NCBI GenBank assembly: GCA_021234155.1
Contig: JAJEKV010000085.1
Location: 1,080,800-1,144,799 of the forward strand
Length of the DNA stretch: 64,000 nucleotides
From: Isoetes taiwanensis
Taxonomy: Eukaryota; Streptophyta; Lycopodiopsida; Isoetales; Isoetaceae
Reading direction: 5' to 3'
The translations under genes and the position numbers were made by a program. Numbering within the stretch: position 1 is the stretch's first letter; each line of letters begins with the position of its first letter. Below, piece after piece: positions 26,303-51,428 of the stretch. The notes beneath the pieces were generated by a model, which saw only the letters and a list, made by a program, of their open reading frames with translations, did not search any database and had not been told where the DNA came from.

Positions 26303-26329
26303 CACCACCACCCCAAAACTGGATCCACA
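26303..26329 (+). repeat. CACTA left terminal inverted repeat
   Basis: 27 bp starting CACCACCACCCC, inverted match to 51,399-51,425 with four differences. The first pentamer has C where T is canonical, which might impair excision. Confidence 0.8.
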
Positions 26330-27230
26330 TGTTGTTTTTCAGTGTCTTTTTTGCAAAAAAACAACACCAAAAAACTACGTGTTGTTTTTTGTCCGACGTG
26401 TAGTTTTTAACAAAATTTTTATACATGTAGTTTTTTTGTTAAAAGTCTATACGTAGAGTTTTGTCGAAATTATCTACACGTAGGAATTACTCGTGTATCT
26501 ACATGTTGTTTTTTAGAAGTAGATGTGGTTTTCAGGTGTTGCTTTTTCTAAAATAGACATGTGGTTCTTAGTAAAACCTAAAAGGTCCACATGTAGTTTT
26601 TAACTATTGTTTTGTATGAAAAAAACACTAAAAAACTACGTATAGAATTTTGTCCGATTTTGCTAGAAACTACACGTAGTTTCTTTGTTTTTTCTTTTAA
26701 CTATGTTGTTTTCTTAAAAAAGTGATATGTGTTTTCTAGGAAGAATGTGGTTTTTTGTAAACTATGTTGTTTCTAAGTGTTGTTTTCTTAATAAAATGAT
26801 ATGTGTTTTTTAAGAAGAATGTGGTTTTTTTTTTAACTCTGTTGTTTCTAAGTATTGTTTTCTTAACAAAATGACAGGTGCTTTTTAAAAAAAATTGTGG
26901 TTTTTTTTTAATTATGTTCTTTCTAGTTGTTGTTTTCTTAACAAAAAATGATATGTTTTTTTTACCTATGTTGTTTCTAAGTGTTGTTTTCTTAGAAAAA
27001 TGATATGTGGTTTTTAAAAAATACCTGTTGTTTTCAAGTATTTTTTTTCTCATGAAGAAGAATTTCGATATATAAGTTTATATAAAATCAACAAGTGGTT
27101 GTATAAAATAGGCAGTTTCAAGTGTTATTTTTGTGAACAAAAAAACATGGTTTTGAATTGAAAAATATGCAAGTGTTATTTTTGTTTGCTTTTCTAAAAC
27201 AAAGAGGTGGTTTTGAATTGAAGATCTAGA
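26330..27230. repeat. CACTA left subterminal array
   Basis: A/T-rich array of short degenerate units around TGTGTAGTTTTTA, TGTTGTTTCTAAGTGTTG and ATGATATGTGTTTTT, in both orientations near the terminus. It corresponds in reverse complement to the right array (AAAAACTACACC-type units). Repeats of this kind bind the accessory protein in En/Spm. Confidence 0.7.
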
Positions 27231-27299
27231 AACCATTGGAAAATATCTTCTTTTTTATTTTTGGATTGTGTTGGGAATGGTACCCGGAACGCCGCATGT

Positions 27300-27317
27300 A
27301 ACGCCGCATGCGGCGTT
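27300..27317. repeat. 18-bp perfect palindrome
   Basis: AACGCCGCATGCGGCGTT, preceded 13 bp earlier by a copy of its left part (GGAACGCCGCATG) and by TTGGGAATGGTACCC. A GC-rich hairpin in A/T-rich DNA. Could be part of an LTR-like start, but no LTR partner was found. Confidence 0.7.
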
Positions 27318-27489
27318 CCCTTCATCTTGCGTCTCCCCTGCGGGATCAAAGTTCCCTCTCTGCCTGATTTTAGTTGACGAAATTAAATGGGGAATTTGAA
27401 TCGGCTGTGCAGCATTCAATGAAAAAATTTTGAGCAAAGGAAAAAAGTATGATGGATGGGTAGTTCTCCACGAATTTTGCTCAGGTCTC

Positions 27490-28125
27490 TCCTCTATATG
27501 ATCACCTGGCGCCCATTTCATTCGGCACTCAACTGGGTCGGATTGGTAGAAACAGAAGTAGACAGCATCAAATCTGCAGGTAAACCAAAATCTGGCATCG
27601 AATCTGGAGACTTTGGTGATGGCATCATGCTAAAACATATTTTTTTCTCAGTATTTTCTATTCTTCTCTTGCTTTTGGAGCTGGTCCTGGAAGGTTTCTC
27701 ATTGCTCTCCTTTGTTCATTTGTGGTTCTCTGCGAAATTTTCGCTCATGTTTCTCCTCCGTCTCACTTGGCGCCCATTTCATTCGGCACTCAGTTGGGTC
27801 GGATTGGTGGAGGAGTAGATAGCATCGAATCTACAGGTAAATAAAAATCTGGACATTGAATCTAGAGACTTTGATGATGGCCCGTGCTAAAAAGTATTTT
27901 TTTCTCATGATTTTCTGTTCTTCTCTTGCTTCTGGAGCCAATCCTGAAAGGTTTATCATTGCTCTTTTTCGTTCATTTGTGCTTGAGCTGGGTAGGATCG
28001 TCCTAAAAAAGTAACGATGACATTTTTTTTTACAACCTTCTTTAGGATTCAAACCTTCCGAAATCTTTTCTCTTGCTTCTGGAGCTGATCCTGGAAGGTT
28101 TGTCATTACTCTCCTTTGCTAGGCC
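27490..28125. repeat. Tandem repeat, about 261-bp period
   Basis: GGCGCCCATTTCATTCGGCA occurs at about 27,508 and 27,769. The block TTCTCTTGCTTCTGGAGC…CCTGGAAGGTTT recurs three times (about 27,664, 27,922 and 28,071), so two full units and part of a third. Not coding in any consistent frame. Confidence 0.8.
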
Positions 28126-28379
28126 TGACTTGCTTTCCCAGGTTTGAATAAATTTGGAGTTAGGCTTCATCCCTGACCTACTAACCAGGGCATCTGCAGA
28201 GATAGCACTATTATTTCCATTACCACCTAATCATGATACAAATCACTAGCAATAGTTGAGCTCTTAGTACTCCACAAAATGCAGAAAAAATTGTCTGAGC
28301 CAGATCTGTTAAAATGGCAAGGTACATGCTGCAGTCTGTGCAAGGTCTCTTGCTTGGTGTTATCAGAGTTCCCTTTATT
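28126..28379. other. Non-coding part of the CACTA interior
   Basis: Nothing recognised before the transporter fragment. Confidence 0.4.
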
Positions 28380-28520
28380 ATCAGAGCGTCAAAATGTAGA
28401 TATAGATGCTTGCTGTTATGTTATAGTTTCTGCATTAACTCTGCTTCTGCGTTTGCATTTGTTGGCTACCTTGCATTTGGGAATGATTGACATCATTACT
28501 CTCAAGTTGCCATAGGGAAG
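28380..28520 (+). pseudogene. Amino-acid transporter fragment (AVT/SLC36-like)
   Basis: The plus strand reads SASAFAFVGYLAFGND and, after a small frame change, DIITLKLP. This matches the 'G.LGYL.FG..T…ITLNLP' block between two membrane helices of amino-acid/auxin permease family vacuolar transporters (AVT, SLC36-like). Nothing else of the gene is evident. The piece is too short and broken to function. Confidence 0.45.
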
Positions 28521-30869
28521 TTGTACTTATATCTGTAATTCTTTTAGGGCGGCTTCCCATTTTTAAGGGTAGGCTTCCAATAAAGGGATTTCTGACACAA
28601 ATCTGAGGATCTTAGTGAGAACAATTGCTGTTGGCAGATAGCTATAGCCATAACATCCTGATATATTGTATATCATATTAAAGGTAATGAACAATTTGTT
28701 TGACCCATGTTTTCTAATTACAGATTCCATTGATGGATGGTTGCATGTTCTTGCCTGCAAGGCTTTGAGCATTAGGCTCTACCATGGCAATTCTGTTTAT
28801 TGTTCTTACTAATCATCTTTCTTCTTTGTTGTAGGTATTAGGGATGTATGTCATCTTCTATGCATCAGCTTCTTTAGTTGTGGAGGTCTTTGAAGTAGGT
28901 AAGAGAATAATGTTTGAGAATGACATTGCCAATTGTTTAGTTAATGGATGATCTCTTTTCCATATTCCTCTCAGAAAGAATTTGCCATGCAAGGTATGAA
29001 AGCCAGAAGCAGATGATAAACATAATCACAGATGTTTTTTCATGATGATGCCATGTAATGTGCAAGTTTTCTAAAGCTACTGGCAAGTTCTAAAAAGATC
29101 AATCAGCTTCTAGCTTCTGGCACTATAATATGGTAGCAAAATAAGAAAGATTGAGAAAGAGAAGCTTACAGTTAATTTTAGTGTAATTTTGGTGTGGCAC
29201 AAGGACACTAAAAGTTGTTGGGTTTGGTTCAATATTACAGTCAATTTTAAATGGTTTCAAAAGTACACTTATATTCTGTTTCAAGAAAGCCTTGAGCATG
29301 AGGTTATTAAGTTTGTTGTGCTAGAAATTGGCAGGCACATGAAACTTGCACAAGAACAAGTGTCTTGCAAATGCTGTATTTTATAAGAGTATTTTGAAGT
29401 CCAAGTTAGTTCAGTGCTTCTTATCTGTGGATTATGAAGGGAACAGATATAGTCACTATGCTGGCAGATTGTACTGTAGTTTAACAGTTCTTATTTAGAA
29501 GTTTTTCCAAGTTCTGTAGGATTTGTTGGAACGGGGTAATGCTCTGAGTACTTTGATGCCAATGTTTCAATTCCCGGAGTAAAATTTTACAGTTTCTATG
29601 TAGGTGGAACAAAAGTAATAATCCACTAGCATGTAGAAACCAAACAGACGGTTTCTGATTTGTGTACAATCCATAGATGTTTCATCATTTTGTAGCATTC
29701 AAGAAAAAGTATTAGGCCTACGTAGAAATACATCTCACTTCAAATATTCGATGTTTCATCATTTTGTAGCATTCAAGAAAAACTATTAGGCCTACGTAGA
29801 AATACATCTCACTTCAAATATTCGCTAAACAGGAAATGAACAATTATTTTTGGCCTTAAAACTTCACTTGGACTTGGTGCGATGATGGAAATGTGAATAA
29901 GTTTATAAGATTCAACGATATATCTCCCTAAGATTCTTTCTGAGAATACTTTCTTATGGACGTGTAGGAGTTGAATAAAAAGAGAGAACGTAATGGTCCA
30001 ATTAAATGTAGATAACAGATTAAACAGAATAATGTAATCTTTGTGTGCACACCCCTTAACCAAACCCTAAGGGACTGACATGTCCTTGCCCCAGGAAATA
30101 TGGTTCTATAAAGATTGGGCGCTTTGATTTAAGTTTCACATCTCTCTATCAATGCAATGTCCTTGACCATAAAGAACAAAATACATGCATCATTTCTTTC
30201 TCGAGCTTGAGAGAAGTGTGGCTGTTGGATAAGCATATATGCCCTTTATTCCTCGATCTAAGCCGTACATAGAGATCCTCGTTTGTGGGGTATCCCAGTA
30301 CAAGTTTTGGTATACAGTATAACACAATTTGCAAAATACTATAAGATTTAAGACAGTGTACTATATGGTGTTGATTTTGTACATGTATAAAATGATTTTA
30401 GGGGCTCTCGCTGCCCTACGTCACCCCCCGTGTGAATATGCACCCAAACCAAAGGGGGTTTCAGGGGGATTTAATTAAAGTTGTAAGAAGTAATGGTTTG
30501 TGTTGTGGAAAAAAAAAATTTGGCCCCTTCGGGGCCTTAAAAAGGTATTGTACATATCGTAAAGAGAAATATGTAGTGTGAAAAAAGAGAAAAAAAAAGT
30601 GTGTAGAATAATAACACTCCCATGAACATAATAAGGTAGACAAATGACAGGTGTTTACATGACGGACACCAAAACATTGCATAGAATTGAGCACTAACAT
30701 ATACTAACTAAGTACACTAGCCGTCATGCCGTAATAAAAGAAATTTATAATAAGCAAATAAAGGTTATACTTTATCCTCAACAATTGTTTTGGGGATGTG
30801 TGGCTATGTTGCACACTGATTTTTTTTTTTGTTGATGAACACTGATTTTGTGCATGTATATGTAGCATT
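28521..30869. other. CACTA interior, no recognised gene
   Basis: Contains an exon-like piece at 28,836-28,897 (TTTGTTGTAG|GTATTAGG, VLGMYVIFYASASLVVEVFE, GAAG|GTAGG) of unknown origin, a 74-bp duplication (29,676-29,823) and a hairpin GGCCCCTTCGGGGCC near 30,521. No long ORF with family features. Confidence 0.5.
29676..29823. repeat. Near-perfect 74-bp tandem duplication
   Basis: Two units (29,676-29,749 and 29,750-29,823), each starting GATGTTTCATCATTTTGTAG and differing at one position. Confidence 0.95.
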
Positions 30870-30879
30870 ATAACAGGGG

Positions 30880-31240
30880 GGGAGCTTTTTGCTCGTGTCC
30901 TTGACCGTCTTTCTTTTAATGATCATACTGCTCAACAGGTTCTATTGTCTAACATGCCCAGGGATGAATTTGAAAATGGCCAAAATGACAGGGAGGTGGG
31001 TCGACTAGACTCACAAATAAATGAATTGACCAGCAAAGGCACTGACAGATGGAGATAAAGCTCCTGCTTTTGAAGGTGTGCAGCCTTTGGCCTCATGTCA
31101 ACAATTAGCCATACTGCTGCCATTGAAGTTCTGTCACGTATTACGTTACATTCATGTGATACTATATTCGGTGACTCTGATACAACGCTTCTTATGCATA
31201 TTGTTGGCTTGCTTCCTTGGTTGTCGTTGCAACCCAGGCT
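30880..31240 (+). pseudogene. FURRY/MOR2-like (cell morphogenesis) gene fragment
   Basis: The plus strand reads ELFARVLDRLSFNDHTAQQV LLSNMPRDEFENG, then in a second frame DKAPAFEGVQPLA, then in a third GLMSTISHTAAIEVLSRITL HSCDTIFGDS and LLMHIVGLLPWLSLQ. These consecutive blocks are characteristic of plant FURRY/MOR2 (cell morphogenesis protein) HEAT-repeat giants, which work with NDR kinases in polar growth. Two frame breaks lie within 150 bp, and similarity ends after LLPWLSLQ. The full protein has over 2,000 residues, so this is a tiny captured or retroposed fragment. Confidence 0.7.
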
Positions 31241-31346
31241 ATGTCCAGCAATACATTTCTCATCTTATGTTGGGCTGGAAAGCAGGCCTCCACAGTCTAC
31301 TCCACCCTAAATTTGACATTGCAGAATCTCCCCTTATAAGTTTATA

Positions 31347-31610
31347 AGTGGAAATGGGCAGTTTCATCAGGCCTACTCACAATATAGCAGCAACAATAAT
31401 GCTCCTTCTCCTTCTTCTGCCCCCGTTTCTTCTTGTTCTGCACCCCCTGCTGCAACAACTCCGGCACCCAAAGCTGCTTCTATGCCAAATGGTTCCAACC
31501 GCATTGTAAATCCTTTGCCAGCCCATGACAGCAGAGCTAATTTCAATACCGTCCCTGTTTCCGAGTCTGGAAATGGTGGGAAGAGCTGGATTCAGCAGAG
31601 AAAGGTTTAG
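31347..31610 (+). pseudogene. Unidentified gene 3' fragment (Ser/Pro/Ala-rich C-terminus)
   Basis: An open frame of 87 codons ends at TAG (31,608-31,610). It reads SGNGQFHQAYSQYSSNNNAP, a Pro/Ser/Ala stretch, NRIVNPLPAHDSRANFN and GNGGKSWIQQRKV. It looks like the disordered C-terminus of a real plant protein, but I cannot name it. It begins shortly after the FURRY-like similarity ends and overlaps the MATE-like fragment on the other strand by about 24 bp. Confidence 0.4.
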
Positions 31611-31991
31611 AAGATCTGGCAAAGAGTAAAGTAAATATGCTGGCAGGATCTTGGCCACAGAATAGCAGGATTCTTTTCATGTTTAACCATAACAGAGCAA
31701 TGGGCAGGCAGGCATAGAGGAGAAAAATTATGGTTCTTTGAAGAGTTAGCCCATCAGCTTCCATCTTTTGGCCCCAAATGCTTGGCCACAAATGGGTTCC
31801 ATTCCCATTGTGAGGCCTGATAGAACTGAATAGCCTGTTATATTTCCAAATCCTATTGCCAGAGATCCTCCTGCTAGCTCTAGCTCCCCCAGCCTTCCCA
31901 AGAATAGCATTGATATTATTGATCTTGCAATATGTAGCATTATAACCATCAGAACCATTGGCCCTGCTATCCCTCCGATCTGTGTAACTCT
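31587..31991 (-). pseudogene. MATE (DTX) transporter 5' fragment
   Basis: The minus strand reads [74 protein letters not shown], then one frame over [36 protein letters not shown], then a third frame YLLYSLPDLLNLSLLNP. This covers the first three or four membrane helices of a plant MATE/DTX antiporter, including the GQAFGA motif. The first break fits a 1-bp deletion in GGC(C)TAACT. Similarity stops at SLLNP, so only about a quarter of a roughly 500-residue protein is present. Confidence 0.8.
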
Positions 31992-34900
31992 TCTTTAATC
32001 TGCATAAATTACAGTCCCAATCAGTTCCTTGAGCTGGATTAAAGGAAAATAATCGAAACCAACTGCAAAATGATAGATAAGTATTCCGCATTTTCGTCTT
32101 GAAGAAATAATTAGCTTAAGCAGATCAAAATGCTCAGAGTGTAAATCAGCATGCATATTCATCCAATGATTCAGCATAAAATGCAATGGAGATGCTCATG
32201 CAAATCAATCTGCACCATCGAAACACAATGCAAATGGGTTTGCAACTAAGTCCGATCCAGCAGAAACCAACTGTAATCTGCCAAAATCTCATGCAAATCC
32301 GCCTGCATGTCGATGCTGAAGCTTGATCAAACAGAAACACGAAGTAAGCAGAAGCAAGTGCTCTAATGCGTGTGAACATGCTGAAAACTGACAGCAAAAA
32401 CGACCCAATTCAAGAACACAAAGAAAGAAAGTTAATGCAATGCGTGATCTATAAGCCTCAAGCAGATCAACACAAAGATGTGCCTAACCTTGGTGCAGGC
32501 AGAGAACCCACCTCGGAAACTTAATGGCAGGCTGGAACGGGAAAAAGAAAAACTGTTGCACTGCCAGATTTGCGAGGCAAGGAAAGAAGGCTTCAAGCAA
32601 TTGAGGCGTAGAATCCCAGCACAGAAGAAATAGTTCCGCCGTCAGCTTGGCCCCTGTCTCCCCATCTCCCTCTCTTCTTCACTTTCCATGGATCTCGCAG
32701 CAAGTTCAGAAAGGGGATTTGAAGCTCGTACCCTACAAACTAAGACCTCGATTATGGCCCTAATCCACACCCACCACAAAATAAGCCTCCACCACAGGAT
32801 TTGCCCTTTTCTAAAATCAATGGCTAACAAAAGGGTGCACTCTAGAAATACTATTTAGTACACCTGGATGAATACGACCACTAAATCATATTAAAACCTT
32901 AGAGAAAACAGTACAAAAACAGAAAAAAGAACCCCCTGTTATAATGCTACATATTTCTTGGTTTGCCAGTGGTATGCTTTTAGAAATGGGCATGAAGTGA
33001 TAATGCAGAAGTCTTGGATATACATTACCATACTTTATTAAATTAGTACTCAAAAGTGAGAATCTAGCATGTTGTACATCACAAGTTCATATAAATATAT
33101 GCTCCTGCTAATGCGCACAAATTTACTAGATTGTTAGAACATTCTAGACTATATATATTAACATCCCATAGACACATCCTACGTGTACGTGAAAAAACAA
33201 ATAATTCACATCTCAACTCTTATTGCCACTGTCGTTTGCCCGATTTAAAAAGGGAGGGGGTGTGTTTGAAAAACCTTCTTTCAGTTTGAACGCATGCAAT
33301 TTTTGCTTCACAAATTTGGCTTACCCTCACTGTTTATTTCATGAATCAGTCAATACAATATTTTTTCCATATAATTGACAGCATAAAAGGAACAGGAAGT
33401 AATCATCACACCACAAATTTAGGGTTTAGTATTGGGATTTGTGTATTTAGCATGATTATGCACCAAAAATCTTGGACCAAAAATCTATTTGCACCAAAAA
33501 TATGTTGTATTTGCATATAGACCCAGTAAAAATATGTTGTATTTGCATGTAGACCCAATATATTTGGTTAACATTTTGTTTGAACTTCATATTATGTGTA
33601 CACTTTAAAGATAAAGTTTTTTCTAGAGCTATAGAGACAAGGTAGACAAAATGGCTTTAGTGGGCATCTTTATAAACCGAAAACATGCAGAGTAGAGTAT
33701 GAAATAGGACAAAATGACCTTACTGGGCATCTCCATAAATAGAAAACATGCTATCTCTAAGAAGGAAGCTTATCCCCGGAATGAAAACCTCGCCCTTTCG
33801 GGTTTTTAAGGAAACCCTAAAAATAAACAACCGTCTAAGAGATACTATACACAACTGAAAAGTAAAAAGGACCCTCATGCCTACAGGCCTTTTTGGATTT
33901 ATAGATAAGTTGTAGAAGGGAATCCACATGCAGGTGTATGCTGCTAGCTATGAAGGAATATGTTGAAAAGCAGCACCTTCACCAACCAAAATCGCAAACA
34001 TGACTGCGTCATCCTGCAAAAAAAAGGCAAGAGTAACTTTCAATAGCCGACCAGGCTCCGATGCCACCAACACAATAAAACCATGCCAAACCAAGCATGA
34101 ACCTAAGCCAACAAGGCCCTAAAACCATTAAACAGCCACCAAGGCTTAAAACTGTAAACAAGCCACCAAGGCTCTAAAACCATAAACCAACAATCCTAAA
34201 TCAATATAAGCCATCCAGGCTCCATAATCATAAACCTATCAATATAGCAATAACCAAAGCAAGTCATACTAGCAAGGTGTAATAAGAAAACAGGAGTGAC
34301 TGCCATTTATATCAACAAAAAAGAGGATGAGAGAGGGAGGGTGGGGGAAAAAATAAGCTCAGCGAAAATTTCCAAAATAGAGAAGCACACAGAAGCCTGA
34401 TGAGAAAAATGTACATGCCAATCTACAAATAGGGCGAGAGCTTGGCAGTAGCCAACCGCTAGGGACACGTATCCTCTAGCTCTAGAAGTTCTTTTACCAT
34501 CTATTCGTTGAAAACAAAGGTAAATGTGACTTCACTATCTATATGTGTCTATTGCACCTACACTTATATTGCCTTGGATGCATTGCGCACATTCACAATA
34601 CAACCACAACTAACGCACATAAATGCCTTCACACGTCCACGACTAATGCCCGGCATCACCGGGCACACGTTTCCAGTATACCTTTATTTTTCAAGATTGC
34701 AGTTACAATTCACAATCAGAACAAAAATATTTTCAGCAAAACTTGCTTGCTGCCATTAATCAATCTGTGAAACAAATTTGGAAATACAATCATTCTAAAC
34801 AAGATTTAAACAAGGCAGCAAAAATTGCTATATTCTTGAAGAAGCCAAGCAGCAAAATGTTGAACAGAAAATGCTCTGTTATATCAAGAAGATGGGGAAT

Positions 34901-35497
34901 AACATGAAGCCCCTGTTTAATCAACAAATCTATTATCTGTTGTAAATGTTGATAATCATTTTCATCATTGGAAGTAAGAATAGTGGTAAAGCCTATATTT
35001 CGAGGCCGTTTAGAATCACAGCAGTTTTGTAGACTTGAAGCTTGATGAGTTCAGACTATGAACATGAATTTGCGGGCAGAGCATGCAGAATATTGGTTCA
35101 TCTTGACCACAGAACCTAAAAAAAGAAAAACATTCTTGATTAGATAGGCAGAAACAATGGAGGAAGGCAAAGCACAAAAAATAAAAGGGAAGGAAGAGCT
35201 GCCTTTCTTTTGCAAACACTATGCCCTGGAATCTTTTCTCAGCTTGGGTCCTTGGTTGCCGGATTTACCCTGGAATCTTTGCCTGCTGGATTACTCCTGA
35301 ATCATCTTGTTATAACGAAGACGAAGACGGGAACAGACTGAGCTACAAAAAGCTCAAATCTGGCCAAAGCAACATACAAACATCTAAGCGGATAAGAATC
35401 ACGCGTATATAAACCGAAAGAGAACATCTGAAAGGATCGGCAAGGAACAGCGGAAAAAGGCTGGAAAAAACGAGACCAAACAAGGGCAAGAACAGTC
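31992..35497. other. CACTA interior without a recognised gene
   Basis: Minus-strand short ORFs at 32,642-32,830 could be leader sequence of the MATE fragment but show no motif. Small tandem repeats: AAAAATATGTTGTATTTGCA twice near 33,520, about four 31-bp units (AAGCCACCAAGGCTCTAAAA) at 34,108-34,240, and a GCCCGGCATCACCGGGC hairpin near 34,650. A TCGCCCTTTCGGGTTTTTAA block at about 33,790 resembles retroelement 3'-UTR hairpins. Confidence 0.5.
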
Positions 35498-35860
35498 TTA
35501 CCATTGGCATGTCCCCCAAAGGGAATCGAAGACCAAAAGGGAAGAGGAAGCAAGAGGAAGTTTTAAGCTAGAAAATAAAGGAACCCAAGAAAAGCAAAGC
35601 AAAAAAAAAATCGCCGGATTGAGGTCAAGCTCGATAAAACCTAGCCACAGCCGGATCCGGCAAATGCAGAGGAGACACAGCAAGGGCGATGACAGGGGGC
35701 GCAGATGGGCAGAGGAGCAGATTGACAGAACCAATAAATGTGAAAATGTGATAGCGATGCAATCCAGCGAGAGGGGCCGATCGAACGGGTTATTGGGTGG
35801 ATGGGACAAAGCTGCAGCGGAGGTAGGTTGCTGCTTCTTCTTCGCTGTCGCGGCTTCCAT
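35498..35860 (-). CDS. Hypothetical ORF, possible captured first exon
   Basis: 120 codons from MEAATAKKKQQPTSAAALSH, becoming strongly hydrophobic (HLLVLSICSSAHL, FFLLCFSWVPLFSSLKL). The region is GC-rich relative to its surroundings, like a plant first exon plus leader. No family recognised. The hydrophobic part may simply be translated non-coding sequence. Confidence 0.2.
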   Translation of the reverse strand: MEAATAKKKQQPTSAAALSHPPNNPFDRPLSLDCIAITFSHLLVLSICSSAHLRPLSSPLLCLLCICRIRLWLGFIELDLNPAIFFLLCFSWVPLFSSLKLPLASSSLLVFDSLWGTCQW

Positions 35861-38189
35861 TTGCTTGGCCCGTGGCTATGGCGGGACAGATCCTCCCTGC
35901 AGCAACAGAGACATGCACATCGCTCCTTTCTTATGTTATTAAGCTGCCGGATTGCTGGAGGATGAGGAAGACGAAGGCGGGAACAGACATGGCATGCAAA
36001 GCGGCAAGGCGGGAATTCAGTCGACCAATAGAACAATAGGCTCTGGATCAAAATCCAAGTCGTTAATTAAGACCACATCTCGGCCGTTTATTTGTATTTT
36101 TTTTTTAAGTGTTGATATTCGAGCATGCACACTTCCTTTGATTTTTTCAAAATTGCCGCACACTTCTTAAGCATTACAAACAACTCATAAATAAAAATTC
36201 ACAATAATATTACAATTGGTCAACAACAATGATGCCATTTTCCTAACCTTATAAATTTGAGTCTATGAAGGGGCAAATTCGTGTACTAATTCAAGTTCCG
36301 CTATGCCTCCACGTATTTTTCTCTAAACAACCCAAAGCAAGATTTGCTCACAGCAAGTAGAGATAATAATACCTTTTGATAGGAATTATAAAGGCTTGGC
36401 ATATATTCAACTGCTTTAAAAGATGTTCTTATTATGACTAGCCATATTCATATAAAGCAGGTAGTCAGACGGATGTTGTGGCTACATCCATGTTCGTCTA
36501 ATGGCTAGCCATGTTCATATGAAGCAAGTAGTAGTGTTTGTGGCCAGATGTTGTGGATACATGCAATAATGATTTGTTGGGAACACATGATGTATTCAAG
36601 TGCTTAACATGTGTTCAAACTCGTTAAAAAGTGTTCATATTATGGCTTAACATGCGTTAAAAAATGTTCATATTATGGCTAGCCATATTCATATGAAGCA
36701 GTAGTATAGTTTTTGAAGCGAGGTGTTGCAGCTATGACTTTTAGCTACATACCATTATATAATGGCCAAAATAACTAAAGCATTCCATTAGAAAAGCTCA
36801 AATGTGTGGAATTTGTATAAAAATAGCCAGCGGTTTGTGGGTTCAAATAAAAGAGAAGCTATATGGAATGACACATTTAATATAAGAAAGATCGATAGAG
36901 ATAAAAAAATAAAATCACTTACAATTTTACAATATTATGCCTTATAACTTTCAATGATGTGGACAGCATACCCAAGCTTAATACCTTATGAGGTGGGTAA
37001 GCTTCTTTATGAGGTGGGATGGTATGTTTTAATGTTGAATGCTTAAACGATTGCACTGCTTAGGGATATAGTGAAGGGACGAATAATCTCTTACCTATAG
37101 CATCAACAATAATTTGAATTTGACTTGCATCAGTTAAAAGACGAATAATCTCTATTAGAAAACTGGCACATAAAAGATATGTGTGCGTTACATTTGGTGA
37201 ATTCTAGTTGTACTTATCTGCACGGCCAGCATCACTGCACTACACTGCCCAAGCTGCCACTTTTTCTTCAATTTCAGCTGAGCCACTTAAATAAGGGTCT
37301 GGAAAACTCACTCTTTTGTGGTGAGAATGATGACAGAGGAAGGTGCAATCTCACAAGTTTTAATATGGAAAATCGAGTAGCTAAAGCACTAAGAAATGAT
37401 TATGCAAGAAACTATAGACAGCCAGGCATAGAAAAACTCAGATTGCGACAGCTAGGGTTTTGGTTGATTTGTAGCTAGGCCAAAAGAGCTGCAGCGAACA
37501 TATTCGTCTTTAGAGAATTTTTTTCTAGTAGTGCTAGAAAATCAATATATGTATAGGCACATAGGACGGTGGACATGCCCAAAGATTAAGGCTATAGTTT
37601 CTGGAGATTGAAAGACGTGCTCTGATACCAAACCATTGCCGAATCAAGAAATCTAGCAAAAGTGGTAGCAGATAGCTGGGCGACTCGATTTCTTGATTAG
37701 AAAGCACGTTGTAGTGTTTGTGGCCGGATGTTGTGGCCACATGCAATCACGATTTTAGTTGGGAACGTGTATTTTTGTTAGAAGTATAATTCCATTCTGT
37801 CCAGGTCGCTCATATTTACTTGAGTCCAATAATTCACCATAGCAAAGTCGCTCATATTTACTTGAACACAATAATCCATCATGCAAAAGGAAACTGACAA
37901 ACACCAGCTTGAGGACTTCAATAGACTCAAAGAAACTAAAGATTTCCAATTGAAATCATCATACCAAACCATATTTCATCCTTAAAACAAATCATGCAAT
38001 TTTATGACTTTAGTGTCCATGCTTAAAAAACCGCAGTACTTCTATCTAGAAATTTGCCGTTGTATGTCATGCGACACCAGAAGCTAATGAGTATTTGACG
38101 GATCTTGTATAGAAACTCCAAAATTCCTACCAGATATTTTGCCGGCAAGTGAAAACTCGGAATGAAAAAAAAAAAATTTCAACCGGAAA
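35861..38189. other. CACTA interior rich in local repeats
   Basis: A unit around GGCTAGCCATATTCATATGA plus TTGTGGCCAGATGTTGTGG recurs, diverged, at about 36,437, 36,500, 36,660 and 37,711. A 42-bp duplication (TCGCTCATATTTACTTGA) lies at 37,805-37,890. A 12-bp hairpin stem (AATCAAGAAATC with GATTTCTTGATT) spans 37,642-37,698, just after a lone TCTGATACCA (37,621-37,630). No gene recognised. Confidence 0.55.
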
Positions 38190-40239: not shown

Positions 40240-41660
40240 AACACATTTATAGTGAACTTGTTGATCCTAAACCTGGCACTTGGATGTCCCTCAGTGGATT
40301 TTTATGGTTAGAACCTCTAGGTTGCTCAAGACAACCAAATTCTATGCAAAATTTGCAAAAAAATATCAATCACTTTGGGATCCTTAAAGCAAAATGAGAC
40401 AGTTGCACTCAGATCTGAATATCTCGAGCTATACTGATTATTTTCACATGATTGTTAAAAGAAAAATAAGAGAAAACTGAAAATGACATGTGGGAAAAAA
40501 TTAGCTCAATTCGGATCTGGCATGAATGAGAAAATTGTGTTCAAAGTGGACATAAAATTTGGCCAGTGCACTTCCCTGAGACAATAAAGGTATGCACACT
40601 CAAATGATGATATTTCGAGTTATATTGATTATTTTCACATTATTTTTTAAGAAGAAATCAGAGAAAACTTGTGGTGACATGTAGGAAAAAGTTTAGCTCA
40701 ATTTGGATCTGGGATGATTGAGAAAAATTGGACAGAAAGTTTGGCCAGTGCACTTCCCTAGCACACTCAAATGAGAATATCTCGATTTATATTAAACATT
40801 TTTTGCTAATTTTTGAGAAGACTAACATGGAAAACTTTTGGGAATATGCCGGAAAAAAATTCGCCTGATTTGAAACTAGGATGATGGAGAACAATGAGTT
40901 CAAAGTGGATCAAAATATTTGTCATTCGTCATAACATGCATCAAAACATTCATCAGAAGATGCGTCAAAGCTTTCGTCAGAACAGAATGACTCCAGCTTA
41001 TGCTATTCCAGAAAATGTTGTTGTCATGGACTATTCTATTCTATATTCATGGACATCAATATCTTTTTGATAATTGCAGGATATTATGCTCTTAAATATA
41101 TCTTAAGAGTACTACATAATGTTGTTCCTCCCCATAAACTATGTTATTATTGGTCGTACTTCATATTTTATATGGGCTTATCCTCAAGTCCAAATGTTCC
41201 TAGTAGATGTTGCTGACATTATATTTGTCATGCACTATCCTTATTCTGTACTTATTCTCCATAATTAGTGATTAAAAAGCTTCATTCCCTCAAAAAAAAA
41301 GAAAAAATAAAATATATCATTTGAGTGTGCATACATGTTTTTGTTTCAGGGAAGTGCACTGGCCAAATTTTTTGTCCAATTTAAACCCATTTTTCTAACT
41401 CATCCTAGATCCAAATTGAGCCAAAAAAAAATTTACATCTCACTCCAAGTTTTCTCTAATTCCTCCTTCAAGAATCATTTAAAAAGATCAGTACAACTCT
41501 GAGTGCAACTGTCTCATTTTGCTTTAAGGATCCTAAAGTGATTCATATTTTTTTTGCAGATTTTGCACAAAGATTGGTTGCCTTAAGAACCTGAGATTCT
41601 AAACCACTGAGGTTGAAGGTTTGCAAGGAGTACCTTCAACATGTGATGCCAAGAAACATA
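40240..41660. repeat. Large inverted repeat with internal tandem units
   Basis: The arm at about 40,320-40,790 (AAAGCAAAATGAGACAGTTG, TTGGCCAGTGCACTTCCCT, CACTCAAATGA) recurs in reverse complement at about 41,310-41,600. In the left arm a roughly 190-bp unit is repeated three times (starts near 40,390, 40,585 and 40,760). The loop is about 500 bp. It resembles a foldback-type element. The right flank of the nested LINE (42,390-42,507 plus 50,341-50,400) is another copy of the same family. Confidence 0.65.
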
Positions 41661-42491
41661 CCCCGCTGCAAAAAACAAGGAAATCGACCCGGATTTAGCG
41701 AGAACCAAACGAAATAAGGGGTTTTAAGGGTTTCTTTTTTCTTTTTTCTTGTTTATCTCAGAGATTTTTCAAAGGCTTCAGCATGATTGTCAACGTATTG
41801 TGATCAAATATTGACTTGGTCAGGATTGCAAATTTGAAGGGATTTTGAAGGGATTTGCACTAATGAAGATCACGCTAAGGGGTTTATTGCTATTCCTTTC
41901 TTGAATCCTAACTTGCAATCAGAGAATGCTTTTCCTTATGGTCCTTCTTCTAGAGACTTCAAAATTGCTGGAACTGGTAGTTCTCTTGGATTTCACGCGC
42001 CATTTGAGACATTTTCGAGTGCTTCAAAAATATAGATGTTTGCAAGCTAATAAATATGCTCCAAAAAGGGCGAAGGATGAGCAACTCCCTCACTCCAAAA
42101 CAGCAAGGCTCTGACAATGGTCTCAGAATGTCAATATTATACCTTGGGTACAAGTTTCGTGGGCAGAAGACCATCGCTTCTCCAAGAAGAGCCAAAAGAG
42201 CTCATGTCTAGTACGTTCGTAGTCAATTGGTCTAGATGGTGGGTGCAGGATACTACCTGGTCGTCATGTTACCTTGTTGCCGCTTGCTCTTCTTGTGGTA
42301 GAGGTCATTTCACTCTTTTGTTTGCTTTATCAATCTTACTTTTTCTATAGCAACCGACCGACGTATATCTAACCACCAGTGGCAGCTTTATATTATGGAA
42401 CATGTTGATCCTAAACCTGGCATGTGGATCAAACCTCAGTGGATTTTATGGTTAGAACCTTCAGGTTGCTTAAGGCAACCAATCCTTATGC
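41661..42491. other. CACTA interior before the nested LINE
   Basis: No gene recognised. From about 42,390 it is a copy of the repeat family at 40,240-40,380 (GTTGATCCTAAACCTGGCA, TTTTATGGTTAGAACC). Confidence 0.5.
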
Positions 42492-43356
42492 AAGATTTGC
42501 AAAAAAGAGAATTCAAGGGAGGAAGTTGAGCAGATGTACACGTCAGCACTGTGCGCCATTTTTCTTGAATCTTTTGTCTTATTAGATTCAAACTAATTTC
42601 TTGATATGTTGTGCTAATCTGTGCTCCTATCTGAAGCAATTACTGGATTAAGATTGCCAGCCTTGTAGGGGCTAGCCTTTCTCATGATTCCCCATAATTT
42701 TCCCTACAGATGGATACCAGAATTTTTGCAATTATCAAGCATAATGCAAGATTAACCTGTGGCTTTTTGAAAGGATCTCCAGTGGCTCTCTGGAATTCTT
42801 TGGTCTCGAACGATATTTTTCGAAGATCTTTTTCGTTCTTTGAATACTTCGTTTGTGCCAAGCTCGGTGGAATTTGAGGTAGAAATTGTGGACTCTTGGC
42901 TTCGAGGGAATTGGGGGAAAAAAGAAATCTACGCTCTTTGGAATCTTTCATGTGCATTGTGGGTGGAGTGATTCGAAAATTGTGGTTAAGGTGTATTCAG
43001 AGCAATGATTCATCCTTTAGTGTAGTTCCCTTTAGTTTTTGGCTTTGAGTGTGGCTTTCCACCTTCTGTAATTTTAATTACGCTTTCGTCTCCCGTTCTC
43101 TTTTTGCCCCTTGTTGTTCCCTCCCGCTATTTCAGCACATGTTCAATCGCTTTTTGTAGTTTCCACCGGTTCTTTCTAGATGGCTCTTAAAAACAAAAAT
43201 TACCCTAAATTTCTTTCTATCCTTCACGCGATTTGCCGATCTTGAGCCCTCCAATCCGGCTCCAATCTTCTCAAGCAACTAAGGTCCTTTCAAGAAAACC
43301 CAAAAAATGTCATTTTCTTTGGTGATTTTGCTAACTCCTTAATTGAACAGTCTTCT

Positions 43357-43986
43357 ATGGATCCTTTGTCTTCCAAAGTGCCATGCTGGGATAATTTATC
43401 CAAGGACCCCGACTATAGAGGCCAATTACCATGCATGGATCCGGCCCGACAAGTTCCTCTCCCCTATGGTGATAAACGGCCGGAACAGCAAAAATTCCCA
43501 GACAAATTCTTCACAAATGCTCTCGGAACAATTCGATCCTTCAATCCTGCTTTCAAAGCCATGAAAACAGTTACTTTTAAAGGTATTTCTTTGGACCTTC
43601 CTTCTGTTCATGCAAAGTTGATTTCTTTTCATGACTCGGCTGTTATTGTCAAAATCAATAAGCATGGTATTAAACTTGATAAACTCTGGGCCTTTTGCTT
43701 GAACCTTCACAAAGAAATTCTTATCAATGCTGTTTATTGGTTACAATCTCCATATGTTATGATTGAATGTGGTAACAAAAGATCTGCCAACCTTTTACTA
43801 AATCGAGGTCCTTTGACTCTGGAGTCCTTTCAACTCACCTTTCTAAAGTGGGATCCCAAATTTGAAGTTGCTAATTTGGATAATCTTTGTGTAGCCTCTA
43901 CCACGCTTCATGGTTTGAATCCTATCTTTGGAATGAGGACCGCCTCAAACCTTTTTAGGTTCCATTGGATCTTATATATGCACTGA
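43357..43986 (+). pseudogene. LINE ORF1, DUF4283-type N-terminal half
   Basis: 209 codons open. Motifs: FKGISLDLPSVHAKLISFHD, KLDKLWAFCLNLHKEI, YVMIECGNKRSANLLLNRGP, LKWDPKFEV and LHGLNPIF. This is the DUF4283 pattern of plant LINE ORF1 (a small RNA-binding fold). The frame then breaks; the following DRLKPF.VPLDLICTEFSP and FVQIDISKDVPS lie in another frame. Confidence 0.7.
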
Positions 43987-44489
43987 ATTTTCGCCATATA
44001 GACCTCCCAAATCTTTTGTCCAAATTGATATATCCAAAGATGTCCCCTCAGTAAATTCCTTTCCTTGATGTTTTTGGTCAAAAGCCTCCCTCTCTTAGAT
44101 GGGCTGGTGCCGCCTCCTCATTGTCAAACCGTAGGGCCGGGCACTTCGGTATGATTCTTGCAAGGATAATTCACCTTCCACAGAAATGAATATGAATTGT
44201 GACATCAATCGGTCGAGGATATGGAAGTCAATCAAGAAGTCAAACAAACAAGTCGAGACTGACAAGTCAATCCCAATGAAAAGCGACAACAGGGGCAGTC
44301 AAGGGACAGCACAAAATGCAATTACCTTGTGCACCAGTTTCAAATTTTGACTCTCTGAATAGGAATAGGGACATTGGCCCTTCAAGCATTTTATCCAAAG
44401 ACAAAGACTTTCAGTGGACCAAAGTCAATGGTAGTTATAAAAGGATCTAGAGAAAGAAAAATCTGAAAGACTCCCAGTCTCAAAATGAT

Positions 44490-45653
44490 ATGACTGGGGA
44501 TGCACCTCCTGTTAGAAATCAAGCTCAAGATGGAACTTCTGAGAAGGGGTTCCAGCAAGTAAAGGTGCTCTACAATGCTGGGCCATCTGCTAATGGCATC
44601 AACAAGGTCAACAGTCTACATGATATTTTGAACAAAATCATTTCGGATGCCAAAAACCTAAACACCAACAGTAAGAGTTCACAATTTTTGAACTCTAACA
44701 GGGGTAAGAGTAGTTCATTAATCAAGAAAGACAGTCATGGAAAGGTCTTAGAAAAGGTCTTTCTGACCAATGATCAGCTCCTTTGTGAGGTAATTGACCC
44801 TAAGGATACTTTGGTTGAAATGGTGCCTGCTCCAATTCCTGCTTCTGCAAGTGATAAAAATCATTCTAAATCAAAGGAGAGGACCATGGTCTTATGCAAT
44901 ACTGAAGACTCAAGGGACAGCATCAAAAATCTAAATGGTAACACCAATCATTTTCAGGTATTGGCTAACCTTAATTCTGAGGTGGATTTGGATGTACTAT
45001 TAGGCAATTCTTACAATGATCCAAACAACCATTCCCAATCTCCCTTTATTGATCTCTCACCAGCCTCTGATCCCTTTCTCCCTCCACCATCCCTCATAGA
45101 CAGTAATATTGCTGAGCAATTAGCTTCCTTGCAAGAGGGTCTTTGCTCTCAATCACAGCAAGTATGCCATGTTTTGGAGGAAGAGATTGTGCAAGATACT
45201 CCAGAAAGGGAGCTGGTGAATTATGAACATGATCAGGATAATTATGGAGAAATTCACAAGAAAGAGGACTTCTGCAAAATGGTTACTCATGAGGTGGCTG
45301 CTGAACTACCAGGTCAGGTTCTCTCTCCTCCTTCTCATAATCATTTGGAGACTTCTAATATTAATTGTGATCTTCCTGCTAGCATAAATGAAATGTTTGA
45401 ATTCATTCCTGGTGGGGCTTCTGATGTCAGTGATTTGGAAATTGATAAGGAAAATTGGGAGGGAGATAAATACCTAGCTGAGTGTTCTCATAAGGAAGAT
45501 ACTTCCAGACATACCTCTGCTCGAGAGGAAAAATTGGCTAAAGCCAAAAAGTATGATACTCCCCTGTCTGAACTCATAAATTTGCATAATACCCCTGCTG
45601 CCAACACTAGAAGTAAAGTTAGAAAAGGGAAAGGGAAAAAGAAAAGATATTAA
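44490..45653 (+). pseudogene. LINE ORF1, C-terminal half
   Basis: 387 codons open, hydrophilic, rich in Asn, Ser, Asp and Glu, ending in a basic tail (RSKVRKGKGKKKRY). No zinc knuckle seen. It lies between the DUF4283 piece and ORF2 and ends 43 bp before the ORF2 start, so it is best read as the disordered C-terminal part of ORF1, separated from its N-terminus by frame breaks at about 43,990-44,480. A stand-alone gene is unlikely. Confidence 0.65.
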
Positions 45654-45696
45654 TCTTTTTCCTTCCTTTTTTTTCTTCATTCTTTTAAAGTCGACC

Positions 45697-48600
45697 ATGA
45701 AGATCATCTCCTGGAATGTTAGGGGTATTAAAGGCCCAATCAAAAGGAGACGTGCCATCTCCCAACTTAGGAATTATAACTCTGATATAATTCTGCTGCA
45801 GGAAGTTAAGCTTCCCAAATTTGAAATCTCCAATCTTGGAGATTGGATTTACCCTGGAGCCTCTTCCACCTGGATTGAGGCCTCTGGTAGAAGTGGAGGT
45901 ATTATCATGATATGGAAAAATCTGAAACATCTCTCTTTCCATAACTCCCCCTCTAAGATGTGGCAAGCTGTCATATTTCAGTTACAAGATTCCACATTTG
46001 GAGTTATAAATGTTTATGCCTCCACCAACCCAAAAGAAAGAGAAGTTCCTTGGTCTGAAATCAAAACTTGGATGCATGCTAATCCTATCCCGAATTTGGA
46101 TTATAGGGGATTTTAATAACACTCCCTCCTGGAATATGAAACTAGGCAACCATCTCAATATGTCTACTTTAGAGAGATCTAATTGGGACTCTTTTATCTC
46201 TGACACTTCATTGGTTTATGTGCCTTCCTCTACTGCTTCTTTTACTTGGTCTAATAAGCAAAAAGGTGACAAAAGAGTCTATTGTACCCTGGACAGATTT
46301 TATGTGTGTAGTCCAACCTCATCCCTTTGGGATAATTGCTATGTCACTAGTGATGAAGGCAATATAATATCAGACCATCAGCCTCAATTTTTATGTACTA
46401 AGCAATTGACTCAAACACCTAGGGATGGCAATGTATCTTACAAATTTAACTGTGCTCTTCTAGAGAATGACTCCTTTGTTAGAGACTTCAAAGATTTCTA
46501 TCTCAATATCCCTGATGAAGGTAATCAGCAGCCAATGAAAAGATTTTATGGCAAAATCAAGAAGGTCAAGAGTTGGATTAAAGGTTGGTCTAAAAGCAAA
46601 CATTTGGCCAAAATCAATGAGAAAGAGCAATTGCTTGCCAAGATGAGGGATATTAGATCTCTCCTTCAAGAAGATCCTCACAATCTTAACCTTCATATTG
46701 GTGAGGAACTTCTAGAAAATTACCTAAAAAGTGTTGAGGAAATTGAGGCCAAAAGCTCTTCCATCAAATGTAAGATTAAATTTAATAAGGACATGGACTA
46801 TGGCAGCTCCAGTTTTTTCTTTAAAATGGCTAAAGTCAGACTGCTTAGAAATGCTATCACTCAAGTTCAGACTGACACTGGAATTTCTCTGAATGACTCC
46901 AAGCTTATTAAGTCTTTCTTCCAAGAGAACTATGCCACTCTTTTTTCCAAAACTCCAGCTCAGCAAATTGACCTTGTCAAGGAAAGAAAATTTCTTGATT
47001 TGCTGGATGTGATCATTCCATCTTCTATGGATAACATGGATGATTCTATTGTGACTCCCCCTGGAGAAGATGAGATTTTCAAGGTTCTCAGATCCTTTGG
47101 CAGAGGCAAATCCCCTGGTCCACGATGGTCTTCCTAGTGAATTCTATGTTCACTGGGGATATTCTTAAACATGATATCATTTCCATGGTTTCGGGTTTTG
47201 GGAGGCCAATTTCTTACATCCTTCAATCTCTGCTGCTTTTATTTCCCTCATTCCTAAAGTGGACAACCCATCTACTTTCTCAGATTGGAGGCCGATCTCT
47301 TTAACCAATACCTCTTATAAGATCTGTGCCAAGATAATTGCAAATAGAATCAAAGTATTTTCTGAGAAGAACATATCTCTCTATCGGTCGACTTTTCTTC
47401 CTAATAGATTTATATTGGACAATTATATCCTTTGCTATGGAAGGTCTTCATTGGAATAGCATCTCCAATCAAAATTGTGTGCTCCTTAAACTGGATTTTT
47501 AAGCGAGCCTTTGATCTGATGAGATGGGATTTTCTTGATCTTGCTCTCTCAAAATTTGGGTTTCATCCTAAATTAAGTTTGCTAATTCATGGTTTGAATA
47601 CTTTCTCTCATTGCTGTCATTATTAATGGCTCCCCTCCCAATTCTTTCCCTTATCTAGAGGAGTCAGACAAGGTTGCCCCCTAGCCCCCTATTTATTCTT
47701 GATAGTAGCTGAAATGCTTACAAAGGCTGTTCTTCATTTCAAGGAGCTTGGGATGATTAAAGGTCTTAATCTGCCAAATAGTGATGAGTCCCTAACTCTC
47801 TCTCAATATGCTGATGATACTTTTGCCTTTTTAGATGCTGATATATCTAACATTGATTTCTTTCTTGACATTATCAATCAATTCTCTGCTGCTTCTGGGG
47901 TCCACCTAAACTTGGCTAAATGTGTGATCATTGGTGATAATATCCAGCCAAACTTTGCTAATCTCAAGGTTGTTAATACTCATCATGCCTCCACTCTATT
48001 AGGTATGCCTTTGTCTCTTAATCCTAATCTTAAAGGCCTATGGCAGCCTATAATAGACAGAATAAGGAAAAAGCTAAATAATTTCAGAGGTGGATTGTCC
48101 TTTGCTGGTAGATCTATTATTGCAAACTCTGTCCTGGCCAGCACTCACATCTATTTTTCCTCTGCTTTAGTGGCCCCTAAGTCAATCTATTCCGAGATTG
48201 AAAAGATTATCAGAAAGTTCATTTGGAAAGGCTCTCATCTTGTTGGATGGAATTATGTGTCCGGGCCTAAAAAAAATATGGTGGTCTTGGCTGCAAGGAT
48301 CTTTATCTGGCTTTGTGCGGCTCTGGTGGCAAATACATATGGAAATCCTTCACGAATAATCTTTGGTCCATCCTCTCATTTTATCGGAATCGGCTCTCCT
48401 GCTCTCACTTGGTTGGCCATCCTACAATTGAGCATATTTTTCCTGATTCCTGTTTTAATGTTCTCCAGGCTGGTGCAAATACTTCCCCTCTTATGAGAAA
48501 CTTCATTATGGCTTGGAACAAAGTACAATCTGCCTATGTTTATGATGATCCTCAAGATCTCAACTTGCAAATGACTATTTTTTGGAATCCAATTCTGAAG

Positions 48601-49440
48601 AATCATCCTAGTAAGACTCTTGCCTTGAGACACCCAAGAATTTATAAGAAATGGTCTGATTATGGCCTTATTTTCCTAGGTGACTTATATCTGAATAAAA
48701 AGCTCATCTCTTGGACCAATCTGAAAAACTTAGTTCATGGCACTTCTAGTGACAAAAAGATCTATCTGCACATTAAGTCGATCCTTCCTCAGACTTGGTT
48801 AAATAATATTGTCCCCAAGGCAACCAATTGGAGCATTGCAGGTAAGTGTTTATATAAGGTCAGTCAAATCTATTCTGCTATTAGCAATTCTGACAATCCT
48901 TCCAAAGCTGGTCTCAAATGGTCTATCACTATGGAGGAGGCCAAATCTCTATTTCATGATGTTTGGAACTCTTATTGCTTCCCCAAGGTCAACTTCTTTA
49001 TTTGGTTGTTAGCTAATAAAAGCATTCCTAATTTACAACTTCTCTCCCTCAGGAATGACAACATATCTGCCTTGTGCCAGCTTCACTGCAGTCTGGAGGA
49101 AGATCTTGAGCACATCTTTATCTGCCCTAAGCTTAATTCTTTTTGGTCTTGGTTTGATGATAAGTTGGGTCAGTTTTTTTCCTAAGGGATCTCGGAAATT
49201 TCTTTGTCTTATATCCAAAATGGTTGCACTTTTGCTAACACTATCATGTTTATTGCTCTTTGGAATATCTGGAAGGCAAGAAATAGAGTAGTTTATGGTA
49301 AAAAGAATTTCTCTATTTTTTGGATCAAATTGCATTTTCAACTTGATATTTGTCTCATTGCTTCTGACACACAAAAGGAAGCAATCGATAAATATGATGA
49401 GAAAATGGGATTTGGTTGGTCATTTCGGGGGGTCTTTTGA
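45697..49440 (+). pseudogene. LINE ORF2: endonuclease, reverse transcriptase, zf-RVT
   Basis: Starts MKIISWNVRGIKGP. Endonuclease residues: WNVRG (Asn), LLQEVK (Glu), IGDFNNTPS (Asp), ISDHQP (Asp/His). RT: RPISLTNTSYKICAKIIANR, LDFKRAFDLMRWDFLD (basal D block), SRGVRQGCPLAPYLFLIVAE and QYADDTFAF (catalytic). Then GGLSFAGRSIIANSVLAS and WKGS. The zf-RVT tail has CFPKVNFFIWLLANKSIPN and CQLHCSLEEDLEHIFICPKL. Frame breaks near 46,105, 47,125, 47,450, 47,625 and 48,265. All catalytic boxes survive, so decay is fairly recent. Confidence 0.9.
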
Positions 49441-50301
49441 TTTATTTGTAGCTAACTTCAATGTTATCAATTCTAATTCTCGCTTTTGGTGATGATGTTA
49501 GCCTACTTGAAGAAATGCAAGAAGAGCATGGGTGAAATGGATGACAATCTACTCAAAAGGGATGTTGATCTTGACCTAAAACTGTTCTTCAACAAACTCT
49601 CCGAAAATGAAGAAAATTTGGACAACGAATATTGCAAGAATGTTCTTAGCGAGAGAGGTGGTGCAAGTCTATACTATGCTTGATTTCCTCTCCATGTACC
49701 CGAGATACATGGTGAGGAACAATTCTCAAGATTGAGGAGAAGCGATTACTATACTCACAGATTTGTTGGCTGATTTGTTTGGTTCCTTGCTTTGTTTGGT
49801 CATGTCGACCTCTCTTGTGTGGATAGCATTGCCGAAAGCGGATTCTTGGCAGTTACACCTTTGGATGGCCGACTCTTTCTATGCCTTCTTCAACTCTAAG
49901 CTTGACTCCTCTCACCTTGCGGACCAAGTAGCCCCATCTTTGTATCTGGCTTCCTATCCAACCCTGCTAAGACATTAATTGCTCAATGGTATTTCCTAAT
50001 CTAGCAGAATTTTGGTTGATGTTACTTTCAGGTTTTAACAATAACTACTGGTTGGGGTCGTGATTTCTACACATTTTTGAAGACTATCTCATTTTTGGAA
50101 GATTATCTCTACTTATCAGCTATCCTTTGATCAATTCAGCTCATCCCAGGATCTGATTCCTGCTGCATATTTTTCAGACTGCACATCACAACATTTTGAT
50201 GGACGTTTATGTATAAAGAACTTTGTTATGCTTTAATCTGCTGATCAAAGCAGAACTATGTACTGTGTTTCTTGATTAATGGGAAAATTCACTCTTACTC
50301 T
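49441..50301 (+). other. LINE 3' UTR
   Basis: From the end of the zinc-binding tail to the poly(A). Contains two short ORFs without motifs and ends CTTGATTAATGGGAAAATTC before the A-run. Confidence 0.6.
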
Positions 50302-50509
50302 AAAAAAAAAAAAAAAAAAAAAAAAAGATTTGCAAAAAAGTATAAATCACATTAGGATGCCTAAAGCAAAATGAGACAGTTGCACTCATATCTCAATATC
50401 CCTTGATTAGTCGTTATGTAACGAGACCTATACGCGAAGTAGGGTACTTCAACATAGGATTCAACGATCAGATAGGAGAACCGAGCTTCGAGAGGGTGGG
50501 CATTAATAG

Positions 50510-51398
50510 CTACTTAAAAACTACATCTGCTTATTATTCACATCTCAAAAAAACCATACTTCTTTAATCAAAAACAGTTACTAGAAACTACACATAGTTA
50601 TAAATTACAACTAAAAAAAAACTATACTTACTTAAGAAATAGCTACTTGAAAACTATGTCTAGTCATAAACCACACCACTTTAGAAAACCATATTTCCTT
50701 AAAATATAGCCACTTAGAAACTACATCTACTTATAAACTACACTTCAAAAAACCATGCTTCCCTAAAAAAACAGCTACTTAAAAACTACACCTAATTATA
50801 TAAACCACACCTCCAAAAAACCATACTTCCTTAAAAATAGCTTCTTAAAAACTACACCTAGTTATAAACTACACCACTTCAGAAAACTATACTTCATTAG
50901 AAAACAACCACTTAAGAACTACACCCACTTATAAACCACACCTCAAAAACCCATACTTCTTTCCAAAACAGCTGCTTAAAAACTACATTCACTTATAAAC
51001 CACACCTCAAAAAACAACACCTAGACTTAAAAAATCATACCACTTCAAGAAACTATACTTCCTTAGAAAACAACTACTTAAAAACTACACCTACTTATAA
51101 ACGACACCTTAAAAAACTATATTTCCTTAAAAAATAGCTACTTAAAAACAACACCTTATTATAAACCACACCTCAGAAAACAACATCCTCTTAAAAACAA
51201 CTCATCTTTAAAAAAAAAACTACACTTCCGCAAAATGAAACCACACCTAAAAAAAAAACCACACCTTCAGAAAAAAAAAAAGCTATAGCTCCTTAAAAAA
51301 ACCTACATCGTCTTCCTAATAAACCACACCTCCACATAACCACATATAGAGTTTTTTGAACAACAACATGTGGTTTTTCTTTTACTGTTGTTTTTAAG
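50510..51398. repeat. CACTA right subterminal array, about 65-bp units
   Basis: About ten imperfect units of roughly 65 bp. Each runs AAAAACTACACCTACTTATA, then ACCACACCTCAAAAAACCAT, ACTTCCTTA and a linker with AGCTACTTA. Units degrade toward the terminus, where shorter AAACCACACCT blocks remain, ending in GTTGTTTTTAAG beside the TIR. Confidence 0.8.
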
Positions 51399-51425
51399 TG
51401 TGGACCCAGAATTGGGGTGGTAGTG
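51399..51425 (-). repeat. CACTA right terminal inverted repeat
   Basis: 27 bp ending GGGGTGGTAGTG; read inward it starts CACTACCACCCC, the canonical terminus. Followed by AGG. Confidence 0.8.
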
Positions 51426-51428
51426 AGG

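Follow-up and report, generated by a model that had tools for sequence, protein, structure and literature searches.

A CACTA element of 20 kb, CACTA elements with gene fragments, and Pack types without a transposase are already in print (PMC2613891; PMC8978399; PMC8903248). The soybean element Tgmt*, a CACTA (En/Spm) transposon of 20.5 kb, codes for a transposase in which tnp2 and TNP1 domains are present (PMC2613891), CACTA elements that have captured gene fragments and contain satellite arrays are reported from Chenopodium (PMC8978399), and Pack-TYPE elements, including Pack-CACTA, are described as retaining inverted ends and duplications without a transposase (PMC8903248). Here, we describe a CACTA element in Isoetes taiwanensis. 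The window, i.e., the whole stretch of 64,000 nucleotides that was analysed (contig JAJEKV010000085.1, positions 1,080,800 to 1,144,799), is free of N and holds the element at positions 26303-51425 (25,123 bp), where a preliminary description made from the sequence alone had placed a CACTA transposon of roughly 25 kb. With a probability of about 0.95, we consider it a CACTA (En/Spm-type) DNA transposon that is non-autonomous, belongs to a family of high copy number, and was later filled by a Helitron and a long interspersed nuclear element (LINE). The element is similar to Tgmt* (PMC2613891) in its CACTA-type inverted ends, subterminal repeats, and large size, whereas no TNP2 of the kind encoded by Tgmt* was found in it. 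It shares foreign DNA and gene fragments between its ends, and enlargement by additions, with the Chenopodium elements as reported (PMC8978399), and differs from them in that its two large additions are nested transposons, as is evident from uninterrupted siblings (other members of the family in the genome). Furthermore, it keeps inverted ends and duplications without a transposase, as described for Pack-CACTA (PMC8903248), although its named gene fragments travel in another nested unit and its TSD (target site duplication) is of 3 bp, against the 5 nt given there for CACTA elements of rice and maize. The nested unit of 7.4 kb is comparable to Helitrons known to carry gene fragments (PMC6431247). 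It has the TC start, the hairpin and CTAG-type end, and the insertion between A and T that are typical of Helitrons, but its gene-fragment unit is absent from two sister Helitrons and was probably acquired by a further insertion. Among the papers listed, none could be tied by its title and the start of its abstract to the termini reported below; no full text was searched for the terminal sequence.

The boundaries of the element are defined to the base. The left terminus (26303-26329, forward strand) and the right terminus (51399-51425, reverse strand), each of 27 bp, match in inverted orientation at 23 of 27 positions, a similarity that ends directly inside them, and the next best opposite-strand partner for the left terminus within the window matches at only 17 of 27. 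The right terminus is the same in 15 of the 16 siblings read (that of sibling C1025 is one base off), and the left terminus deviates at positions 4 and 21 from a common form, CACTACCACCCCAAAACTGGGTCCACA, of which the genome holds 190 exact occurrences (99 + 91). The right end has the CACTA/CACTG start of the superfamily (CACTACC) and the left end of the window copy reads CACCACC; a CACC start is seen in 2 of the first 100 terminus matches listed. Copies of AGG flank the element on the left (26300-26302) and on the right (51426-51428), in agreement with the TSD of 3 bp given for the CACTA superfamily (PMC8978399). Short-repeat arrays, likewise characteristic of the superfamily, lie inside both termini: the left subterminal repeat region (26330-27245, forward strand) includes tandem arrays at 26704-27017 with periods of 75 and 54, and the right subterminal region (50505-51398, forward strand) includes arrays at 50505-51213 with periods of about 64-67, multiples of these, and 17. 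The two regions have 64 9-mers in common in the same inward orientation and 40 in the opposite orientation, as against a mean of 21 and a maximum of 39 in 200 mononucleotide shuffles, and the motif TGTRGTTTT occurs inward eight times in the left region and seven times in the right, with 0 and 1 occurrences in the other orientation.

When the element and one AGG are removed, one frame is open for 347 amino acids over the join and the other two for 38 and 23. The upstream and downstream parts of the interrupted frame, both on the forward strand, lie at 26157-26302 and 51429-52323, respectively. The joined flanks match all 40 scored places (968 candidates) at 85-94% identity, every alignment spanning the join at query position 203/204. 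In one of these related copies (L016), inspected base by base, the sequence is uninterrupted and contains a single AGG. The flanking sequence is a dispersed repeat that contains a long open frame, which we presume to resemble L1 ORF1. Thus the preliminary description, which had rested on exact 27-bp inverted ends with AGG on both sides, tandem subterminal arrays, and an in-frame join of a flanking LINE ORF1, is confirmed to the base in its delimitation of a CACTA-type element, and the empty site it had proposed to look for exists in related copies of the flanking repeat. Its LINE ORF1 holds as a long interrupted open frame of a dispersed repeat, but the LINE identity is weaker than had been claimed: a Pfam search with both parts of the frame matched no family, and the similarity to a frame of a retroelement in a sibling is weak (17 aligned residues, E 0.002).

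A search of the 1.658-Gb assembly for the terminus pattern with at most one mismatch returned 600 matches (291 forward and 309 reverse), and the reversed control returned 0. Of 760 candidate places for the left 398 bp of the element, 40 were scored, the window copy among them, and all 40 match at 90% or more; the right 526 bp gave 1355 candidates, of which 40 were scored. Right ends for pairing were taken from the 40 full-length matches, minus the window copy and C919 (which stops 2 bases short of the terminus), and from 31 further right ends among the first 100 terminus places listed, duplicates removed. Of these 69 right ends, 22 pair in proper orientation with an exact left end, the only form accepted, within 60 kb, and the spans range from 5,297 to 32,355 bp. 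Sixteen of the 22 pairs were read and six left unread, and all siblings read were selected through well-kept ends. Identical 3-bp flanks were found in 16 of 17 elements (the 16 siblings and the window copy), C918 being the exception, and matching flanks of 2, 4, or 5 bp in none of the 17. The 600 related ends and the oriented pairs with 3-bp TSDs exclude the possibility that no other element in the genome shares these termini, and they supply the further copies that the preliminary description had suggested searching for. Two members of 8,260 and 8,257 bp lie on C1100 (11144610-11152869 and 11161195-11169451) in the same orientation with starts 16.6 kb apart, perhaps through a segmental duplication.

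The bulk of the 25 kb is mostly the result of later nesting. The backbone of the element is collinear, with gaps, with sibling C1029 (14,660 bp) over 26303-27246, 34677-36289, 37364-38925, 39532-42460, and 50505-51425; in its central part (34677-42506, forward strand), the pieces align at 87-97%, and 36290-37363 and most of 38926-39531 are unaligned. Within 40300-42506, several diverged direct and inverted self-copies are present (40300, 41338-41554, and 42444), which are matched in other siblings as well. The first insert is a Helitron of 7,431 bp (27246-34676, forward strand). Helitrons insert between A and T, and the insert lies between these two bases without duplication. It starts with TC and ends with a hairpin with a 7-bp stem (34647-34665) followed by CCAG, one base off the CTRR consensus, and the five other 3′ ends read have CTAG. 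Counting the window copy, A precedes the 5′ end in all five copies with an intact start and T follows the 3′ end in all six. Other copies stop at these edges as well: among the matches listed besides the window itself, the match ends 1-4 bases beyond the 3′ edge in 28 of 39 and starts no more than 7 bases from the 5′ edge in 33 of 39, and the remainder stop short of the edge or extend past it. No Rep/helicase family was matched among the scanned open reading frames (ORFs) of at least 50 amino acids. The second insert is a LINE of 7,818 bp (42507-50324, forward strand) with endonuclease (PF03372) and reverse-transcriptase (PF00078) domains in broken frames and a 3′ poly-A (A run at 50302-50326), flanked by 15-bp TSD copies at 42492-42506 and 50325-50339. 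The Helitron site (27245/34677) is unbroken in siblings C1029, C1094, and C918, and C918 is also unbroken at the LINE site, with 97.8% identity over 368 bases; both inserts were therefore added later. Together with the 15-bp repeat they account for 15,264 of 25,123 bp (61%), and the remaining backbone of 9,859 bp makes the CACTA element itself one of ordinary size, about 9.9 kb. The preliminary description had called the element unusually large, which is accurate for the span of 25,123 bp but not for the element without its two later inserts; even with these, the window copy is the third largest of 23 members sized (the 22 pairs and itself). The nested LINE that it had noted is present as described, and the nested Helitron of 7.4 kb had escaped it.

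The Helitron in turn contains a third unit (30222-32954), which carries the gene fragments. An open frame at 31074-31307 (forward strand) corresponds to a fragment of MOR2/PAG1 (FURRY) (PF14225, E 1.3e-7) and another at 31749-31994 (reverse strand) to a fragment of a MATE transporter (PF01554, E 1.3e-13). The unit has a perfect inverted repeat of 23 bp (30858-30880 and 32932-32954) and a sharp right edge after GCTACATAT; its left edge is rearranged, and a 56-bp piece is inverted in one copy. No transposon class could be assigned to it, given the rearranged left edge and, beside it, the absence of about 118 bp that the sister Helitrons possess. Furthermore, 18 bases within the MATE coding fragment (31929-31946) equal the inverted ends of the unit, for which chance seems unlikely. 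The stretch 30858-32954 matches three other places over its full length at 97, 94, and 91%, with the same left neighbourhood as in the window and different right flanks, and partial matches occur at other loci, e.g., on C1100 over the MATE part (93%) and on C1043 over the MOR2 part (90%). Since two sister Helitrons (5,163 and 5,539 bp) are without the unit and possess some 118 bp at that point instead, it probably arrived by a further insertion and not by Helitron capture, and the two fragments most likely came in with this further unit, in the Helitron, in the CACTA element.

These findings bear on the possibility of a giant Pack-CACTA, in which the CACTA element itself would have captured host genes and the 25 kb would be its own cargo. 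Consistent with such an origin, the MATE and MOR2/FURRY fragments do lie between the ends, as the preliminary description had noted, and ORFs of siblings have other matches (e.g., AMP-binding, E 9.5e-8). However, the fragments belong to a dispersed unit, found at three other places at 91-97% with different right flanks, and this unit sits in a Helitron that has copies elsewhere and occupies a site uninterrupted in three siblings. For the two named fragments of the window copy, capture by the CACTA element is thereby rejected; their position in a third unit inside the Helitron leaves no sign of it, and this origin for the element is accordingly very improbable, although backbone sequence with no named match may still derive from the host. 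A further question is whether two unrelated CACTA ends merely face each other in the window. That 47 of the 69 right ends have no exact left end within 60 kb, with only exact left ends offered, would fit such a composite, and the element in C918, with its unequal flanks, resembles one. The window element, by contrast, has identical AGG copies and a related empty site with a single AGG, and its backbone follows the same order in C1029 between the same two ends; on this collinearity and the empty site, a composite of unrelated ends was rejected, with a very small residual probability.

A non-autonomous CACTA transposon is thus the preferred interpretation, and its lack of a transposase, already noted in the preliminary description, was examined in the window and in the siblings. 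In the window element, 135 ORFs were listed, and the 127 that remained after exclusion of those in the end arrays, all of at least 50 amino acids and outside the LINE, matched no transposase family; nor did 141 ORFs of at least 90 amino acids from the first 10 siblings, and the six later siblings were checked by tblastn alone. When three TNP2 proteins encoded in the same genome were used as tblastn queries against all 17 elements, no match was obtained up to E 1, at a sensitivity at which a transposase that is more distantly related or heavily decayed could escape. Two of the three queries are 96% alike, and the two lineages thus represented detect each other at 36-38% identity, which served as a positive control. 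With neither a family match nor a tblastn match, the window element is classed as non-autonomous. TNP2 itself abounds in the genome: of 2311 candidates, 150 were scored, with 167 matches. The empty site shows that the backbone (about 9.9 kb), with its 27-bp ends and its subterminal arrays, inserted into a copy of the dispersed repeat and duplicated AGG, and the uninterrupted siblings show that the Helitron, which contains the gene-fragment unit, and the LINE were added to it afterwards. In the mechanism we propose, the cut-and-paste step may have been performed in trans by a TNP2-type transposase that is encoded elsewhere in the genome and acts on the ends and arrays, possibly with a partner protein that binds subterminal motifs such as TGTRGTTTT. 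The role of subterminal motifs in transposition is established for En/Spm.

Several observations weigh against this interpretation. Among the 150 scored of 2311 TNP2 candidates, the exact left ends, and the 69 right ends, no member was identified that combines these ends with a TNP2 gene, and thus the autonomous TNP2 relative that the preliminary description had proposed to look for was not located inside an element in these partial lists. Of the 150 TNP2 places listed, one has a listed end less than 60 kb away, at 32.5 kb, and by eye a further TNP2 place was seen about 28 kb from a left end on C908; both of these ends point away from the TNP2 place, and, the lists being partial, they carry little weight either way. 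The two changes in the left terminus may render the present mobility of the window copy uncertain. The element in C918 has well-formed ends with unequal 3-bp flanks, GAT/TGA (L035-L037), and is perhaps a recombinant of two elements. Finally, CACTA elements of rice and maize are given duplications of 5 nt in the account of Pack-TYPE elements (PMC8903248). A related question is whether the element, as described, is a relic of a family that is no longer mobile. The failure to find a transposase in 17 elements and the two changes in the left terminus point in this direction, as does the most similar long stretch shared by any two of the elements read (C907a and C1044, 97.2% identical over 4.9 kb), so that no very young copies are present among them. 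However, the sample read comprises just 17 elements, each selected by way of well-kept ends, and the two C1100 members of near-equal length lie outside these. We regard a relic as a serious possibility with somewhat less than an even chance.

The elements read can be grouped by their interiors. Comparison of 16 elements (C963 being omitted, and each element trimmed by 1,000 bases at its start and 1,700 at its end) revealed that C907a, C1044, C1030, and C1025 have 6.4-7.2 kb in common, C907b and C920 have 6.2 kb, and the window copy, C1029, and C918 have 3.8-7.0 kb, and other pairs have from nothing to about 3.1 kb. Sibling C1094 contains open frames of another retroelement (L003:4716-7951), and reverse-transcriptase and endonuclease matches occur among the sibling ORFs. 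Long imperfect arrays that translate to repeats such as SNMPRWLKHATWAPTCHLG are present in siblings L005, L006, L008, L012, and L013 and are likely internal tandem repeats. On a broader and rather doubtful view, which we put forward tentatively, this would be a CACTA lineage that lacks a transposase and has hundreds of ends, in which members of 5-32 kb keep their termini and arrays and have their interiors largely replaced, the ends functioning as a frame that is reused and mobilized in trans; against this, many siblings have 1-3 kb of interior in common and two groups have 6-7 kb. The window copy provides a base-exact case in which a seemingly giant, gene-carrying CACTA element proves to be of ordinary size once the Helitron, gene-fragment unit, and LINE that fill it are set aside. 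Furthermore, a family that has hundreds of close ends, and in which the 17 elements read yielded no transposase, would be a useful system for determining how far the interior of a transposon may change while its ends work.

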